Below are positions 6,948-28,611 of a DNA stretch of 32,461 nt, piece after piece. Under the pieces are notes generated by a model, which was given only the letters and a program-made list of their open reading frames with translations, ran no database searches and was not told the DNA's origin. The stretch is from Verrucomicrobiota bacterium. Lineage in GTDB: Bacteria > Verrucomicrobiota > Verrucomicrobiia > Limisphaerales > UBA9464. The translations under genes were made by a program, and so were the position numbers. The stretch's first letter is position 1, and each line of letters opens with the position of its first letter. The stretch covers positions 1 through 32,461 of the forward strand of contig JAPLUF010000335.1 of assembly GCA_026397755.1 (NCBI GenBank). Direction: 5' to 3'.

Positions 6948-7057
6948 CAAATCGGGCTCCAAGGGGTACTCTGAAAACCTAAGATCAAATTGGATTCACG
7001 GCCATCCCTTTTCCTCACTCTGGACCAATAGGATTTGACGGACTCTTTACGGCCAGT

Positions 7058-7095
7058 ACCACGGGGACGGACCGCTCGGAGATCGGTCCCTACCT
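7058..7095. repeat. Dispersed repeat module A, copy 1
   Basis: A 38-base module (accacggggacggacc... to ...tccctacct) that matches 8923-8960 at 36 of 38 positions in the same orientation. It contains a stem GGACCG/CGGTCC around a 9-base loop. Confidence 0.85.
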
Positions 7096-7100
7096 CGGAA

Positions 7101-7223
7101 GTCATCGGGCTACATCCAAGATTCCTGCCACAAACTCGGCCTCACCCACGCACTTCCGAGGTAGGGCGATTTCTCCGAAAGCGCCACTCCGGCGAGCAGG
7201 ACAGAGATGCGGCGCTCTTCATG
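7101..7223. repeat. Dispersed repeat modules C and B, copy 1
   Basis: Bases 7101-7148 (gtcatcgggctac...) match 8663-8711 with one indel and scattered changes. Bases 7160-7223 (ggtagggcgatttctccg...) match 8853-8916 at 57 of 64 positions, with six of the seven differences being transitions. The 23-base piece at 7139-7161 recurs at 8641-8663 and 8702-8724. All copies have the same orientation. Confidence 0.85.
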
Positions 7224-7244
7224 ACAAGCACTCTCGACAAGCAG

Positions 7245-7296
7245 TGCCTCGGGCCGTCCTTGAGACTCGGCAATGAGGCCGCGGAGGTGAGCGTCA
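7245..7296. repeat. Dispersed repeat module D, copy 1 (touches lipoprotein stop)
   Basis: This 52-base piece (tgcctcgggccgtccttgag...) matches 9229-9280 at 49 of 52 positions. Its right end includes the stop codon of the lipoprotein gene (7294-7296). Copy 2 lies inside a coding sequence. Confidence 0.88.
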
Positions 7297-7674
7297 TTTC
7301 GCCTTCATGGCCTTCAGGAGGCCATAGGCACGTTGGGCCGATTCGCTGCCGGAGGCGATCTCCGCCGCCAACCGCGCCTCGAGCTGCACCGTGGATCCAT
7401 GGATCGCCAAACCTTGCTCGAAGGTGACATTGGTGGCCGCACGCACCGTGGTCAGGGAAACCACCGCCTTCTCGTATTCGCCACGACGCAAGGCCTCAGC
7501 GGCCATATCTGCGGCTCGCCGAGTCTCTTCCGGGGCATGGGCGAAGGCCCGCTCGATCTGACTGGCCGCCTCCGCGGGTGTGGATGCAGTCTTTAAATCC
7601 TCGCCCTCCCGGGAGCCACAGCCCAGCAGCAACCCGCACAACAACAACACTGTGGCACCATCGATGATCCTCAT
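7294..7674 (-). CDS. Small putative lipoprotein
   Basis: A 126-residue protein that starts with a lipoprotein signal peptide, MRIIDGATVLLLCGLLLGC, with the lipobox Cys at residue 19. The mature part is mainly alpha-helical, alanine- and glutamate-rich (for example RRAADMAAEALRRGEYEKAV), which suggests a TPR-like helical hairpin. I do not recognise a named family. The start is ATG at 7674 with an excellent ribosome binding site GGAGGAG (7682-7688) seven bases upstream. It sits just downstream of the split pseudopilin gene on the same strand (24 bases after that frame's final stop) and was probably cotranscribed with it. Its stop codon falls at the edge of repeat module D. Confidence 0.8.
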   Translation of the reverse strand: MRIIDGATVLLLCGLLLGCGSREGEDLKTASTPAEAASQIERAFAHAPEETRRAADMAAEALRRGEYEKAVVSLTTVRAATNVTFEQGLAIHGSTVQLEARLAAEIASGSESAQRAYGLLKAMKAK

Positions 7675-7698
7675 GCGTTCGCTCCTCCAATTCCAGAT

Positions 7699-7908
7699 TC
7701 ACTCACCCGTCAAAGAGTCGGGGACGCACCAGAAGCGACCGGGACGCACCCCTCGGAAGCCACCAATGCCGGCTTCCTGATAGTAAGTGCGGAACTTCAT
7801 GTATTCTGTCTGACCGCCGAACATTCCCATGACCGTTCCCGTATTGTGTCGCTGGGTAACCCCTTCATCCGGACGACTGGCAACATTGTCGAAATTGGAC
7901 GGCTGCTT
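7699..7908 (-). pseudogene. Severed C-terminal part of the pseudopilin gene (after in-frame TAA)
   Basis: In the same frame as the pseudopilin, 69 further sense codons follow the TAA at 7909-7911 before a TGA at 7699-7701. The encoded tail looks like a normal Verrucomicrobia pseudopilin C-terminus: DNVASRPDEGVTQRHNTG, then GMFGGQTEYMKFRTYYQ, then PGRFWCVPDS. No frameshift separates the two parts, only one stop codon. No start codon with a ribosome binding site is evident for separate translation. The likely history is a single change in a sense codon (for example GAA to TAA), but readthrough or a base-call error are possible. Confidence 0.8.
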
Positions 7909-8454
7909 TTAGCCTGCCTCCCAGTACAGCATGGAATTCGGATTGAACTGCAAGAGCTTGTAGGTCGAGAAAGGTTCCTTCGGCCCGGTCGAGTACCTTG
8001 AGACGGCCCCATTCATCATGTAGCTAGAAACCTTCTGGTCCCGAAGTTTGAAGAGTGGCGTGTTGGTGCGGTCCAGAGGGCAGAAGGTCAGCGCTTTGGA
8101 ATTGTGGTAGTTCCACAACTGGCTGCGCTCCACCGTGTGATCTGGCCGATTGGTGGCCACGCGCATGTAGCACCAGTTGGCGACATTGAAAGTGCCCGAA
8201 CTCCACGAGGTGTAGGGCATGTAATCCTGATTGTCGTTGGCGTACATCTGCGTCGCCAGCAGCAACTGCTTGATGTTCGACAGGCAACGGGTCCGGTTGC
8301 CCTGCTCCTTGGCCTTGGAGAGCGCCGGCAGGAGCATGCCGGCCAAGATGGCGATGATGGCGATGACCACCAACAATTCGATGAGCGTGAACGCTTTGCA
8401 GCCTTGGCGTTGGGGCAGCAGCTCGACCGTTTCACAGGGTTTCAGCGCATTCAT
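7909..8454 (-). CDS. Type IV pilin-like pseudopilin, N-terminal part, ended early by in-frame TAA
   Basis: The product is 181 residues with a prepilin leader and cleavage/methylation motif [19 protein letters not shown], followed by [20 protein letters not shown], the usual opening of the Verrucomicrobia H-X9-DG-like pseudopilin families. Such proteins are cleaved by prepilin peptidase just before the Phe and anchor in the inner membrane or assemble into type II-secretion-like pseudopili. ATG at 8454 is taken as start; a TTG at 8472 is also in frame, and neither has a clear ribosome binding site. The frame ends at TAA 7909-7911, right after MLYWEAG, where family members continue. The globular C-terminal domain is therefore shortened by about 69 residues, and the protein may not be functional. 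Confidence 0.88.
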
Positions 8455-8640
8455 GACGGTGACGCGGCTCAAAATTCCGATCCATTGGGATCAAGCATTG
8501 TCTCTACTACTGTTCGTCCTTTGTCACGCCATAATTGGATGACTTTGCATTCCCCACCCAACACAGCGATCGCAGGATCAGCTCAGCCATCACAACAAAC
8601 CGACTAAACCCTACAGACCGGGCTAGGCACCGCTGTTTCA

Positions 8641-8727
8641 GCCTCACCCATGCACTTCCGAGGTCATCGGGCTATACAGCCGGGGTCCTACCACAAACTC
8701 AGCCTCACCCATGAACCTCCCCGGTAG
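8641..8727. repeat. Dispersed repeat module C, copy 2 (with internal duplication)
   Basis: Bases 8663-8711 match 7101-7148. The 23-base piece gcctcacccatgcacttccg at 8641-8663 is repeated with changes at 8702-8724 and also at 7139-7161. Confidence 0.8.
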
Positions 8728-8778
8728 GGACCGAGTCTCTCGGGCCATCCCCTCTTCGCCCGGCAGCCCCGGGGAGCG

Positions 8779-8795
8779 GACGGTGAGACACCGTC
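8779..8795. repeat. Perfect 7-bp hairpin within the repeat block
   Basis: GACGGTG-AGA-CACCGTC forms a perfect 7-bp stem with a 3-base loop. A wider inverted pair, GGTAGGGAC at 8723-8731 and GTCCCTACC at 8793-8801, brackets it. No T-run follows, so a terminator role is uncertain. Confidence 0.6.
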
Positions 8796-8852
8796 CCTAC
8801 CGACTTGCCGCTACCGGCCTTCCGGGCCCTTAGGCCCCGCTGCCACCTCCCC

Positions 8853-8916
8853 GGTAGGTCGATTTCTTCGAAAGCGCCACTCCGACGAACAGGACAGAGG
8901 TGCGGCACTCTCCATG
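8853..8916. repeat. Dispersed repeat module B, copy 2
   Basis: This 64-base module matches 7160-7223 at 57 positions, in the same orientation. Confidence 0.85.
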
Positions 8917-8922
8917 GTCAAC

Positions 8923-8960
8923 ACCACGGGGACGGACCTCTCGGAGATCGGTCCCTATCT
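8923..8960. repeat. Dispersed repeat module A, copy 2
   Basis: This module matches 7058-7095 at 36 of 38 positions. In this copy module A follows module B, whereas in copy 1 it precedes it, so the module order differs between the two blocks. Confidence 0.85.
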
Positions 8961-9036: not shown

Positions 9037-11607
9037 TCAAAGTCCGAGACGGACTTTGAGATCACGGGCGACGGTGCGCTCCGGTCGGGCTTCGATCAGG
9101 AGGTTCAACAGACGGCGAGCTCCATTCGGATCGGAATGAGCACGCAGCGAGGCACGCGTAATTAATTGGGCATACCCGGGAGTGAAGTCAGCGCTCAAAA
9201 CAACACTCCGAAGGAAACCCTGCTCCGCTGCCTCGGGCCGTCCTTGAGACTCTGCGATGAGGCCCCGGAGGTGAGCGTCACGCGCCTCGAGATAGGCACG
9301 GAACCGACGGCACTCGTCGGCCGGTCGCCCGGCACACAAGCCCTCCGGAAACGGACGCTGGAGATCGAGAAGCTCCGACAGCAGGGCCTGTCCCTTCGGC
9401 GGAACCGGGCCCAACGTCCGGGGGGCGTCGAAGAGCAGGAACGGGTGATCGTCGGTGTTGATCCCAACGCTCTGGGAGTAGGTCTTGAGGGTTTCGGTAT
9501 CAGCGAACCAGGTGCCCATCACCGGCAGGACCTCGGCCAAGGCCATGGGCTTGAGGGCTTCCCGCAAGCTCGGCTGATTCAGACGCCGCTCCAGGGCCTC
9601 CGGCGACCAGAGATGACGTCCGTTCCCTCCGATGAGTCCGATCACCGGCGTGTCGGCGTTGAGTCGCAGCAACAGCGCCGAGGCGTCGGGAAACACCTCT
9701 AGAAACGTGGCGGTGATCATTCGCAGCCCGTAAGTATCCAGCTGGAAGAGCGGCAACCACTGGCAGAAGAGACCGCCGTCCGATAAGCGATCCCGGATCG
9801 CCTGGAAGTGTTCTCGGGTGTACAGGCCCGCCGCCCCATCCCGCGCCGGATGGAACAAGTCGGCGATCACGACATCGTAGCGTTGAGTAGATGCTCGAAC
9901 GAATCGCCGGGCATCCGCAACCCGTACGGTAAGCCGATCACTGTGGGCATTGTGCGATGCGAATTCAGGCATCACCTCGGCGACTTCGGGCACCAATTCA
10001 ATTCCCTCGGCCACCAATCCTGGGTGCGCATCGAGGGCGGAGAAAGAGATGCCTGTGCCGACTCCCAGGAACAACGCCCGACGCGGTTCCGGATGCAGGA
10101 GCAACGGCAGATGACCATGGCGTCGCTCGGCCAAGGCGGAGGCGGTGCCACCCATGGTGAAGCGCTGATTAATGCGGAGAATGCGGTGCTTATCGGCTTG
10201 GACCACTGTGGTCACCGTGTCCGAGGGCCCTTCGCGCAAGGTCACGATGCGTCCCCCGGGCGGAGGGGTTTGCAAATGGAGATCTTTCGGCAGACTCATC
10301 AGTGCCACCGCCGCCACAGCCCACCCCGCCATCGCGACCCAACGCATTCGCCGCCACCCCGGGACCAGCGTCAGGTATCCCAGACCCAGCAAGATCCAAC
10401 TCCAGCGGGTACCCAAGGCCGGTATCAGACCGAGCGCCATCACCGCGGGTGCCAGGGCCGAGCCAATCAGGTTCCACGACAGGGCCACCCCTAGAAAACG
10501 CGGATGCCTTCCTGCTTCAGAGATCAGCGAGGCGAAGAGCATTCCCATGGCCAGCGCTGGAGGAGCCACCACCGAGCTGGCCACCAAGAATTCTGCAACC
10601 ATGGCCGGCAATGCGAGCGTTCCCATGCCGCCGCGCAGCATCGAAACCAGCAGCGGCGTCTGACGCAAAACCCATCCGGCCATCGCCACACTCAGCGCCA
10701 CCCCTGGGAGCAACCACCCCAGCGCGCGACTGGCTTTTGGAGCGAACCGATTTTGCAAAGCCCCGCCCAAGGCGGTGAAGAGCAAATAGGCGGCGAGGAT
10801 CACCGCATAGGTGAAGACCGTGTTCTCGAGGACTTGCGACAGAAGCCGAGTGGCCAACACTTCGAAGCCAATCCCCAGGAGGCCACTGAGCCACAATGTA
10901 GCTCGAAGCCGCGAAGGGTCCAGACGATCCCCACCCTGCGCCACCGTCGAAGTCATCGCTTCCACGGACCGAACCCGGCGTCCCGTCCACAAGAACAAGA
11001 CGGCACAAAGGCACTGAAGGCCCGCGAATCCGATCACCGATCCAGACAGTCCCCAGCGTCGTTGCACCCATAGCACCGAAGCCAGGACGCCCACGACTGC
11101 ACCGAGGGTATTCACCGCATACAAGGGCCCCACCCGAAGTCCATCGGCACGGAAACCCGAGATCAATCGTTCCATCGCCGGCATCATGGCTCCCAGACAC
11201 AGGGTCGCCGGCAACAGAACCACGCCCGGCAACAGCAGGCTTACGACCCAGTGAAGCCCGACCCCGGGAGCAGGCCCGAGCCACTGCCAGGAGGACTCCG
11301 CGACCCACGGCACGAGGAGCACCGTCGCCAGCGCCCAGAAGGCCGTTAGTGCCTCAAGCACTGCACAGCGAATCCCGGGAGACGGCAGGCGATCCAGAGC
11401 ACGACCGCCCCAACGCGAACCCACCGCCAGTCCGCCAAAGAAGGCGGTGATCACCCCTAAGGTGGAGGGCAACTCTTGTCCAAGACCCAGCGCGAACATC
11501 CGTGCCCAGACCATCTGAAGGCCCAGCGCAGAAGCACCAGACGCACCCACCGCCAGCGTCAGGCCGAATGGGATTCGAGAATGTCGGACAGGATGGGGCA
11601 TGATCAT
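9037..11607 (-). CDS. Multi-membrane-span protein fused to a spermidine-synthase-like domain
   Basis: An 856-residue fusion. Residues about 1-440 are strongly hydrophobic with many membrane spans (MFS-like or SpeE-associated membrane domain). A Rossmann methyltransferase-like domain follows, with the nucleotide-binding glycines FLGVGTGISFSAL near 510-525, the acidic GIELVPEV strand, and VRVADARRF. The C-terminal ~130 residues are helical and TPR-like. The segment equivalent to the spermidine synthase active site reads VVIADLFHP in place of a DSSDP-type motif, so polyamine synthesis is doubtful. Bases 9229-9280, encoding DAHLRGLIAESQGRPEA, are the second copy of repeat module D. The start is ATG at 11607. 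It is the last gene of the seven-gene run, 52 bases after pgl. Confidence 0.9.
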   Translation of the reverse strand: MIMPHPVRHSRIPFGLTLAVGASGASALGLQMVWARMFALGLGQELPSTLGVITAFFGGLAVGSRWGGRALDRLPSPGIRCAVLEALTAFWALATVLLVPWVAESSWQWLGPAPGVGLHWVVSLLLPGVVLLPATLCLGAMMPAMERLISGFRADGLRVGPLYAVNTLGAVVGVLASVLWVQRRWGLSGSVIGFAGLQCLCAVLFLWTGRRVRSVEAMTSTVAQGGDRLDPSRLRATLWLSGLLGIGFEVLATRLLSQVLENTVFTYAVILAAYLLFTALGGALQNRFAPKASRALGWLLPGVALSVAMAGWVLRQTPLLVSMLRGGMGTLALPAMVAEFLVASSVVAPPALAMGMLFASLISEAGRHPRFLGVALSWNLIGSALAPAVMALGLIPALGTRWSWILLGLGYLTLVPGWRRMRWVAMAGWAVAAVALMSLPKDLHLQTPPPGGRIVTLREGPSDTVTTVVQADKHRILRINQRFTMGGTASALAERRHGHLPLLLHPEPRRALFLGVGTGISFSALDAHPGLVAEGIELVPEVAEVMPEFASHNAHSDRLTVRVADARRFVRASTQRYDVVIADLFHPARDGAAGLYTREHFQAIRDRLSDGGLFCQWLPLFQLDTYGLRMITATFLEVFPDASALLLRLNADTPVIGLIGGNGRHLWSPEALERRLNQPSLREALKPMALAEVLPVMGTWFADTETLKTYSQSVGINTDDHPFLLFDAPRTLGPVPPKGQALLSELLDLQRPFPEGLCAGRPADECRRFRAYLEARDAHLRGLIAESQGRPEAAEQGFLRSVVLSADFTPGYAQLITRASLRAHSDPNGARRLLNLLIEARPERTVARDLKVRLGL
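9229..9280. repeat. Repeat module D, copy 2, inside a coding sequence
   Basis: This copy matches 7245-7296 at 49 of 52 positions. Read in the frame of the host gene, all three differences fall at third codon positions and are synonymous (Arg CGG/CGC, Ile ATC/ATT, Ala GCA/GCC). Confidence 0.88.
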
Positions 11608-20818: not shown

Positions 20819-21265
20819 TCAGTATGCGGGTAGAATCGAACCTGGCAGGTCGTTGAGGGGATACCCCAGGTGGAGGGCCGCCTCGCGGAGCCGTTGGTCA
20901 CTGGTCACCAGAGGCCAGTCTTGGAGCTGATCGGCTGTCGCCAAGTGAAGGGCGTCGAGGGATCGCAAGGGCACCTTCGGATGCACGCGCCCCAGAATCC
21001 AATGAGCTCGCCGAACGATCGCCTCGGAAATGGGCGACACATCGATCATTTGCGTACGCATCTGATCCTCGAACCGTTGCCAGGCTTCGAGACGCAGTCG
21101 GGTTCCGATGAGTTGGGCCCGCTCCCGGGCTAGCAAAGCAGACCAGACCTCGGTGAAGGCCAACATGGAGGACGAAACAGGGTGTCCCTCGACCAGGCGG
21201 GCGTAAAACTCGCTGTCCGGTTCGCGGATCAGAAGTTTCACCAGAATGCAGGAGTCGAGATACAT
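20819..21265 (-). CDS. vapC: PIN-domain ribonuclease toxin, VapC-like
   Basis: A 148-residue PIN-domain protein that would cut RNA and is held inactive by the antitoxin encoded just upstream. The acidic metal-binding set is complete: Asp4 (MYLDSCILVKL), Glu39 (AFTEVWSALL), Asp104 (RSLDALHLATA) and Asp123 (LVTSDQRL). The start is ATG at 21265, 24 bases after the antitoxin stop, the usual antitoxin-first order. Which RNA it cuts cannot be told. It lies between the ABC operon and the HtrA gene, all on the same strand. Confidence 0.93.
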   Translation of the reverse strand: MYLDSCILVKLLIREPDSEFYARLVEGHPVSSSMLAFTEVWSALLARERAQLIGTRLRLEAWQRFEDQMRTQMIDVSPISEAIVRRAHWILGRVHPKVPLRSLDALHLATADQLQDWPLVTSDQRLREAALHLGYPLNDLPGSILPAY

Positions 21266-21289: not shown

Positions 21290-21538
21290 TCAATCCCGTC
21301 CATCGCGCTCGACGCGGATGAGCACCTCCGCCGAAGGGCCGGAAACCAGCGGCTGATCTCTCAACCACTTCCAGTCCACCGAATAGGGTTTGCCGCGGGA
21401 CCTCACAGGCACCAGTCGGGCCTTGGGATGACCGTCGCTGGTAATGATGATTTCAGCACCCCGCGAGGCCTGCTCAAGAAGGCTCGACAACTGATCTTTG
21501 GCAGCACGGACGTTGATCGATGTGGACTGCGGTTCCAA
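21290..21538 (-). CDS. Phd/YefM-type antitoxin
   Basis: An antitoxin that binds the PIN toxin and the operon's own promoter. The diagnostic stretch is SINVRAAKDQLSSLLEQA, then GAEIIITSDGHPKARLVPV, the DNA-binding Phd/YefM fold, followed by a toxin-binding tail. I chose the TTG at 21538: it has a strong ribosome binding site GAGGTGG (21544-21550) ending five bases upstream, and gives 82 residues, the normal family length. An in-frame ATG at 21625 would add 29 residues (MKQCAPPVGYPQG...) that do not look like the family; it has no ribosome binding site and would lie at the predicted transcription start. Pairing a Phd-type antitoxin with a VapC-type toxin is common. Confidence 0.88.
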   Translation of the reverse strand: MEPQSTSINVRAAKDQLSSLLEQASRGAEIIITSDGHPKARLVPVRSRGKPYSVDWKWLRDQPLVSGPSAEVLIRVERDGRD

Positions 21539-21631
21539 CCCAGCCACCTCTCGAAGGACCACACCGGTTTTGGCGCCCTCTGAGGTCCCTTGAGGATAAC
21601 CCACAGGGGGGGCGCACTGTTTCATGATCCA

Positions 21632-27063: not shown

Positions 27064-28539
27064 ATGAAGTTCCTGAACCCCACCGCGCTCACCGCCGCTC
27101 TCGGCCTCGCGACCCTCCTGCCTGTGTTCGCCGCCACCAAGGCCGAGCAGGAAGCCGAGTATTACCCCATCACCACCCTGCCCGTGCCAGAGGGCGTGGT
27201 GCTGGAGGCCGGTGCCATCCAGGTGTTGCCCGACCAACGCATCGCCGTCTCCACACGACTGGGCGAAATCTGGTTCGTCGCCAACGCCTTCGACAAAGAC
27301 CCCGCCAAGGCCAAGTTCACCCGCTTCGCTTCAGGCCTGCATGAGGTGCTGGGCCTGACCACCCGCGGCGATGGATGGATTTACGCCACGCAACGCGGCG
27401 AACTCACGCGGCTCAAGGACACCAACAACGACGGTCGCGCCGACCTCTTCGAAACTGTAGCCGACAGCTGGGGCATTAACGGCGACTACCACGAATACGC
27501 CTTCGGTTCGAAGTTCGATCGCGACGGCAACATCTGGGTAATCCTCTGCCTCACGGGTTCCTTCACGAGCGAGAATCCGTACCGCGGATGGGCCCTGCGG
27601 ATCACCCCCGAGGGCAAGACGATCCCGACCACCAGCGGACTGCGTTCGCCCGGCGGCATCGCCACCAACCATTTGGGCGAAATGTTCTACACCGACAACC
27701 AGGGGCCCTGGAATGGCACGTGTTGGCTCAAGCACCTGAAACCTGGACAGTTTGTGGGCAACCCCACGGGCAACCGCTGGTACGAGAAGGCCTCGAACAT
27801 GGGCCCTCGGCCCAAGGATCCGACTAGCAACAGCCGCATCCCGGTCGAGCGGGCCAAGATCCCTGAGTTCGTGCCTCCGGCCATCGGATTCCCCTACAAC
27901 AAAATGGGCCAGAGCGCCTCGGGCATCCAAAACGACGGCACCGCCGGAAAGTTTGGTCCTTTCAAGAACCAGCTCTTCGTCGGCGACCAAACATGGAGCA
28001 CGGTCATGCGGGTGTACTTGGAAGAGGTCAATGGTGTGTATCAAGGCGCCTGCTTCCCTTTCCGTGAAGGCTTCGATAGCGGCACGCTCAGTCTCGAAAT
28101 GGCCTCCGATGGCACGCTGTTCGTGGGCGGCACCGACCGTGGATGGGGCGCTCGCGGCGGCAAGCCTTTCGCGCTCCAACGGATGAACTGGAGCGGCAAG
28201 ACCCCGTTCGAAATCCACGAAATGCACGTCAAGTCGGACGGGTTCGAACTCACCTTCACCGAACCCGTAGATCCGGAGACCGCAGGCAAGGTGGAGTCGT
28301 ACCAGTTCCGCACCTTCACCTACATTTACCAGTCCAACTACGGATCGCCTGAGGTCGATGCCACCCAACCGGCGATCGAGTCGGTGACCGTAGCTGCCGA
28401 CGGCCGCAGTGTGCGTCTCAAGACCGCATTGCACTTGGGTCACCTGCACGAACTCAAACCCACCGGGGTACGCTCTAAGGCAGGCCAACCGCTGCTGCAC
28501 CCACTGGCCTACTACACCCTCAACGAGATTCCTCGCTAA
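27064..28539 (+). CDS. Secreted beta-propeller protein, PVC sugar-dehydrogenase-like
   Basis: A 491-residue exported protein with the signal peptide [20 protein letters not shown], cleaved about VFA/A. Blade-like repeats resemble PQQ-dependent sugar dehydrogenase or NHL propellers of the PVC group: [70 protein letters not shown] and [20 protein letters not shown]. No heme motif is present. A C-terminal segment ([15 protein letters not shown]) looks like an Ig-like domain. A dehydrogenase role with the neighbouring cytochrome as electron acceptor is an inference; the substrate is unknown. ATG at 27064 is chosen because it begins the signal peptide; an in-frame GTG at 27019 would add 15 residues. 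Confidence 0.9.
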
Positions 28540-28543
28540 GAGC

Positions 28544-28585
28544 CTGTCTGAAAATGGGGAGGGGCCCCTCCCCAGTTTCAGACAG
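28544..28585. terminator. Long near-perfect palindrome between convergent genes, likely bidirectional terminator
   Basis: Two 21-base arms, 28544-28564 and 28565-28585, pair with a single mismatch (CTGTCTGAAAATGGGG... against ...CCCCAGTTTCAGACAG) and no spacer. It lies five bases after the propeller stop and 26 before the end of cdaR, which faces it. The stem is very stable, but there is no T-run on either strand. A short palindromic mobile repeat is an alternative. Confidence 0.65.
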
Positions 28586-28611
28586 TCTCTAAGGACATCG
28601 TCCGGTCGGAG

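Follow-up and report, generated by a model that had tools for sequence, protein, structure and literature searches.

Templated insertions at microhomology junctions arise by template switching or by double illegitimate recombination. The locus described here resembles such an insertion in being a short ectopic patch with a nearby template and short overlaps at both ends, the difference being that it is known only as an old, shared scar. It also resembles ectopic gene conversion between short repeats in that alleles of a gene recur in the intergenic copies of other species, although here the evidence is modest and the tract is only 52 bp. With a partial gene duplicate or pseudogene fragment it has in common that it is derived from coding sequence, has no start codon and is not kept as a protein, but in this case there are only 17 codons with sharp ends and no longer remnant. 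On double illegitimate recombination, PMC8116780 lists Hulter and Wackernagel (2008) among its references. None of the titles listed in literature searches dealt with the locus studied here, which comprises a lipoprotein-like gene and an MFS/spermidine-synthase gene, or on its repeat family.

The DNA that we analysed, referred to as the window, is a stretch of 32,461 nucleotides of contig JAPLUF010000335.1 from a Verrucomicrobiota bacterium. It contains a 52-bp module in two copies, one coding and one intergenic. We consider it likely that the intergenic copy is the product of a one-time templated insertion, the scar of which is shared by a small clade of uncultured Verrucomicrobia. On this reading the scar is an ordinary product of genome rearrangement.

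The repeat pair and its neighbourhood

The source gene (9037 to 11607, minus strand) would encode a fused MFS/spermidine-synthase-like protein of 856 amino acids, which matches the NCBIfam model NF037959 for fused MFS/spermidine synthases at 73.4 bits (cutoff 40) as well as Pfam Spermine_synth. Matches to this protein are found in 53 of 59 genomes, counting the window's own genome and paralogues. The coding copy of the module lies on the minus strand at 9229 to 9280 and corresponds to residues 777 to 793 (DAHLRGLIAESQGRPEA), while the intergenic copy lies at 7245 to 7296, also on the minus strand. The original prediction had paired these two places, and a repeat search confirmed the pair: the copies are identical at 49 of 52 positions (94%) and form a direct repeat (D2) in the same orientation. 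It had further claimed that all three differences are synonymous changes at third positions in the frame of the host gene, which is correct, the codons in the coding and intergenic copies being CGG and CGC for arginine, ATC and ATT for isoleucine, and GCA and GCC for alanine.

When the window's own assembly (G000, with 410 contigs totalling 3.79 Mb and a completeness of 80.6%) was searched with 111 bases around the coding copy, the coding place (E 1.3e-52) and the intergenic place (E 1.2e-16) were recovered, and the next best of the 13 matches covered 27 bases with an E value of 0.056. The search for further copies that had been proposed thus finds the module at such similarity in only two places, with no third copy of similar quality in this 80.6% complete assembly, and the insert matches a single distinct template elsewhere in it. 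With two genomic copies only, the module was rejected as a member of an interspersed-repeat family, unlike the flanking modules D1, D3 and D4, which do belong to one.

Next to the intergenic copy is a small ORF of 126 amino acids (7294 to 7674, minus strand), whose C-terminus and stop are the same in G006 and G018. This ORF has no Pfam or NCBIfam match at E 0.01, and the term lipoprotein rests on its signal-like start. The intergenic copy had been described as lying outside any evident gene and touching the lipoprotein stop; the position is right, but the stop lies inside the module, as the TGA at 7296 to 7294 of the minus strand forms its first three bases. Adjoining the lipoprotein is a prepilin-type ORF (7909 to 8472, minus strand; Pfam N_methyl), and nine genomes of the genus have the lipoprotein and pilin ORFs as a pair.

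On its other side the intergenic copy abuts a truncated interspersed-repeat unit, consisting of D1 plus a linker (7160 to 7244), with several copies in G001, G010 and G014. Shorter matches to the outer part of this unit are frequent in the window's own genome. Further modules of the interspersed repeat (D3, D16 and D4) lie at 7042 to 7162. The repeat also occurs, equally oriented, next to the 3' end of the source gene, in a right-hand cluster between the pilin and source genes (8638 to 8960). For the repeat modules at 7036 to 7244 and 8638 to 8960, a 265-base query (7036 to 7300) gave 49 matches in the own genome, nearly all of them to the repeat part. Contig C56 of G010 ends in this repeat family, and in G001 a unit of about 70 bp belonging to the family is repeated three to four times in tandem (L069, about 8063 to 8322), an array that is absent from the window. 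Elsewhere in the window, an overlapping inverted repeat with 30-bp arms that are 90% complementary lies between two converging ORFs (28536 to 28593) and is perhaps a bidirectional terminator, and two adjacent small ORFs (20819 to 21265 and 21290 to 21625) resemble a PIN-domain toxin and its antitoxin.

Age of the coding stretch and distribution of the joined form

The comparison of homologous C-termini that had been proposed was carried out on 25 homologues, namely 23 of the 29 loci outside the own genome in the homologue search plus two from further searches. The module region is present without an internal gap in 23 of the 25, some of which are only about 43% identical, and is not an insertion. 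The exceptions are G033, where the frame lacks the C-terminus and the match has two stops, and a Rhodocyclaceae homologue with a five-residue insertion within the stretch. In the G033 homologue (L020) one TGA and one TAA fall inside the match. Given the ungapped alignment, the stretch is, on sequence comparison, an ancestral part of the protein. The suggestion that a repeat was recruited into the C-terminus is therefore rejected, the stretch being ungapped even in the homologues of about 43% identity. The last codon of the module encodes alanine in the window's gene and in G001, and glutamate in the eight next nearest homologues (G014, G010, G017, G006, G018, G011, G016 and G009). In G017, two contigs of the same bin (L014 and L076) overlap at the C-terminus of the gene with differing sequence, a sign of strain mixture.

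The order of lipoprotein stop, 52-bp module, linker and repeat unit is found with identical junctions in the window, G001, G014 and G010. A 206-base query made up of the module and the lipoprotein end found the joined form in four of 19 genomes of the genus, the own genome included. In G010 the joined arrangement sits near the end of another contig. A reading under which this genome lacks the lipoprotein-pilin pair was rejected, as the pair is present on that other contig. All of the named records are metagenome assemblies, and the isolate names of other members of the genus (LacPavin, LaPlata, Baikal) suggest a freshwater origin of the relatives.

G006 and G018 have the lipoprotein and pilin in the corresponding position and no module, and their lipoprotein has an unchanged C-terminus and stop. 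The state without the module is known only from these two genomes, in which the spacer is about 300 bp long and wholly different from that of the window, so that they do not show the original sequence of the site. The pair and the source gene are on different contigs in G016, G009 and G011; in the comparison of stops, no lipoprotein end was recovered for G016, G009 and L111. In G017 (L076, contig C469) the pair is absent from this place and the contig runs straight through, with no full-length match to the pair elsewhere in that genome. Beside the place that corresponds to window positions 7238 to 8853, the left repeat cluster on this contig directly joins the right one, the arrangement expected after a deletion between direct repeats.

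The lipoprotein-pilin pair is 92 to 93% identical to that of G006 and G018, while its flanks are 82 to 90% identical. On this account we considered whether a G006-like donor had passed on the pair horizontally, leaving the fragment as a residue of the resident gene. The idea was dropped, because within the clade, too, the pair evolves more slowly (96 to 99% against 86 to 97% for the flanks in G001, G014 and G010), and slower evolution suffices.

Origin of the intergenic fragment

On present comparisons the intergenic module is the derived copy, taken from the coding sequence. The original prediction had raised the possibility that it is a remnant of a coding paralogue. Its derivation from coding sequence agrees with this, but only 52 bp of the gene are present, between an interspersed repeat and the lipoprotein gene. 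Similarity ends sharply on both sides, and no further source-gene sequence is recognisable at the intergenic place beyond the module. With so little of the gene present and flanks of this kind, a decayed gene copy fits less well than a short templated insertion.

Short overlaps are present at both ends of the module, although at 3 and 4 bp they could be due to chance. At the first junction (7245 to 7248, plus strand), identified by comparing repeat units, the bases TGCC are common to the repeat unit and the source coding sequence. The copy of the unit beside the source gene in G014 continues CAGTGCCACGGGGACGG, and the left unit of the window breaks at CAGTGCC and is followed by the gene-like TCGGGCCGTCC. 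The overlap is 4 bp (TGCC) with the G000 gene and 2 bp (CC) if the module in the source ended in the codon GAA, which is the one found in G014, G010, G017, G006 and G018. The second junction (7294 to 7296, minus strand), identified by alignment with G006 and G018, is the TGA stop of the lipoprotein, common to the 3' end of that gene and to the coding sequence of the source gene. The sequences at this end are GAGCGTCACGC in the source gene, AAGCATCATTTCGCC in G006 and GAGCGTCATTTCGCC in the window, which gives an overlap of 3 bp, TCA on the plus strand, within an imperfect AGC[G/A]TCA.

The event would have taken place in the common ancestor of the window's species, G001, G014 and G010. A rearrangement would have brought an interspersed-repeat unit up to the 3' end of the lipoprotein gene. 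About 45 to 52 nt would have filled the junction, copied from the part of the MFS/spermidine-synthase gene, 2 kb away, that encodes the C-terminus, with the short overlaps TGCC and TCA at the two ends of the fill. A likely trigger is the presence of the repeat, equally oriented, next to the 3' end of the source gene, since a template switch or strand invasion within the repeat could then reach that gene. We infer a template switch or repair event with this gene as template, and likewise that it was a single event and that alleles may have been exchanged between the copies.

The fragment could instead be the last remnant of a larger duplication, comprising the 3' end of the source gene and the downstream repeat, that shrank by deletion between the short overlaps. 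Both copies in the window do have D1 on the same side (7151 to 7223 and 8844 to 8916, 86% identical), and the left unit resembles the right-hand units (89% over 64 nt in the window and 87% over 94 nt in G014) slightly more than it does the remaining listed copies above 70 nt in length (70 to 86%). This closeness is small, however, and no other piece of the source gene remains; moreover, the left unit needs no local duplication, because D1 plus linker has several copies elsewhere in G001, G010 and G014. We consider such a duplication unlikely. An assembly artefact of metagenome bins is highly improbable, since the same junction occurs in four genomes with different alleles, even though G017 does contain a mixture of strains, with two differing contigs over the gene end.

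Synonymous differences and exchange between the copies

When the relatives are taken as reference, the probable derived states are ATC and GCA in the G000 gene and CGC in the G000 fragment. This polarisation is imperfect, as ATC also occurs in G017 and in the G014 fragment, GCA in the G014 fragment, and CGC in the genes of G001 and G014. The probable reason why every difference is synonymous is that the gene, under selection at the level of the protein, acquired two of the three changes and the fragment one, and in the fragment a lone change had a one-in-three chance of falling at a third position. Exchange of alleles between the copies may add to the pattern.

Constraint on the intergenic copy as a coding sequence seems doubtful, with observations on either side. 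The proposed check for nonsynonymous changes was run and found them in two of the three other species' copies, a change of E to K in G010 and of Q to E in G001, the outcome that had been named beforehand as arguing against such constraint. The frame of the fragment has no ATG, GTG or TTG either within the module or before it from the upstream in-frame stop, which lies four codons upstream (TGA AGG CGA AAT GAC). Against this, the four intergenic copies show eight changes from their consensus, six of which are at third positions (P = 0.018), a lean that exceeds the expectation for a wholly neutral fragment.

Two routes to translation of the fragment were considered, a +1 frameshift extension of the lipoprotein at AAA TGA C and a coupled ORF at the overlapping ATGA. 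The +1 frame is indeed open for 52 to 70 codons in the four genomes and the ATGA overlap exists, but each of the two frames ends at three different places among these genomes, six of the eight changes are second positions of the ATGA frame, and G006 and G018 keep the lipoprotein end with no fragment. Also against translation, AAA TGA C lacks the slippery codon of the known prfB site. Taken together, translation by either route is barely credible. An RNA element was rejected as well: folding was no better than that of shuffled sequences (z of -0.76 for the module and 0.77 for 7200 to 7310), and the sole Rfam match, at 12.8 bits against a gathering score of 40, was taken as chance. We found no sign of function in the fragment.

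Ectopic gene conversion would keep a coding-like pattern in the fragment with no need for translation, and it is compatible with an origin by templated insertion. Of the eight changes that the four intergenic copies show, five coincide with alleles of the coding pool, with P between 0.0001 and 0.001 for random sites and between 0.006 and 0.04 if only third positions change. The intergenic copy of G014 differs from the window's gene at one base but from the G014 gene at eight, and the module varies at 7 of 52 sites compared with 72 of 1261 beside it (P = 0.03). On the other hand, there are few changes, some of them linked, in species that are not independent of one another. Variation in the adjoining repeat flank, at 7 of 85 sites, is not much less than in the module, and a tree with the intergenic copies as one clade is only two parsimony steps longer (27 against 25 in a heuristic search). 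Within the gene, the coding module is no outlier in 15 pairwise comparisons, the lowest fraction of equally divergent windows being 0.09. On balance we rate conversion as about as likely as not. All four intergenic copies would encode alanine at the last codon of the module, a letter that possibly came from the repeat at the junction.

That the non-coding fragment serves as a small donor which occasionally rewrites C-terminal codons of the gene, a reading to which the alanine codon in the genes of the window and G001 gave rise, seems very doubtful. Proof of allele exchange would show that, in natural populations, conversion can act on a tract of only 52 bp. For repeat pairs that differ only at synonymous sites, the locus carries a caution: both copies need not be coding, as most of the differences may originate in the one partner that is.
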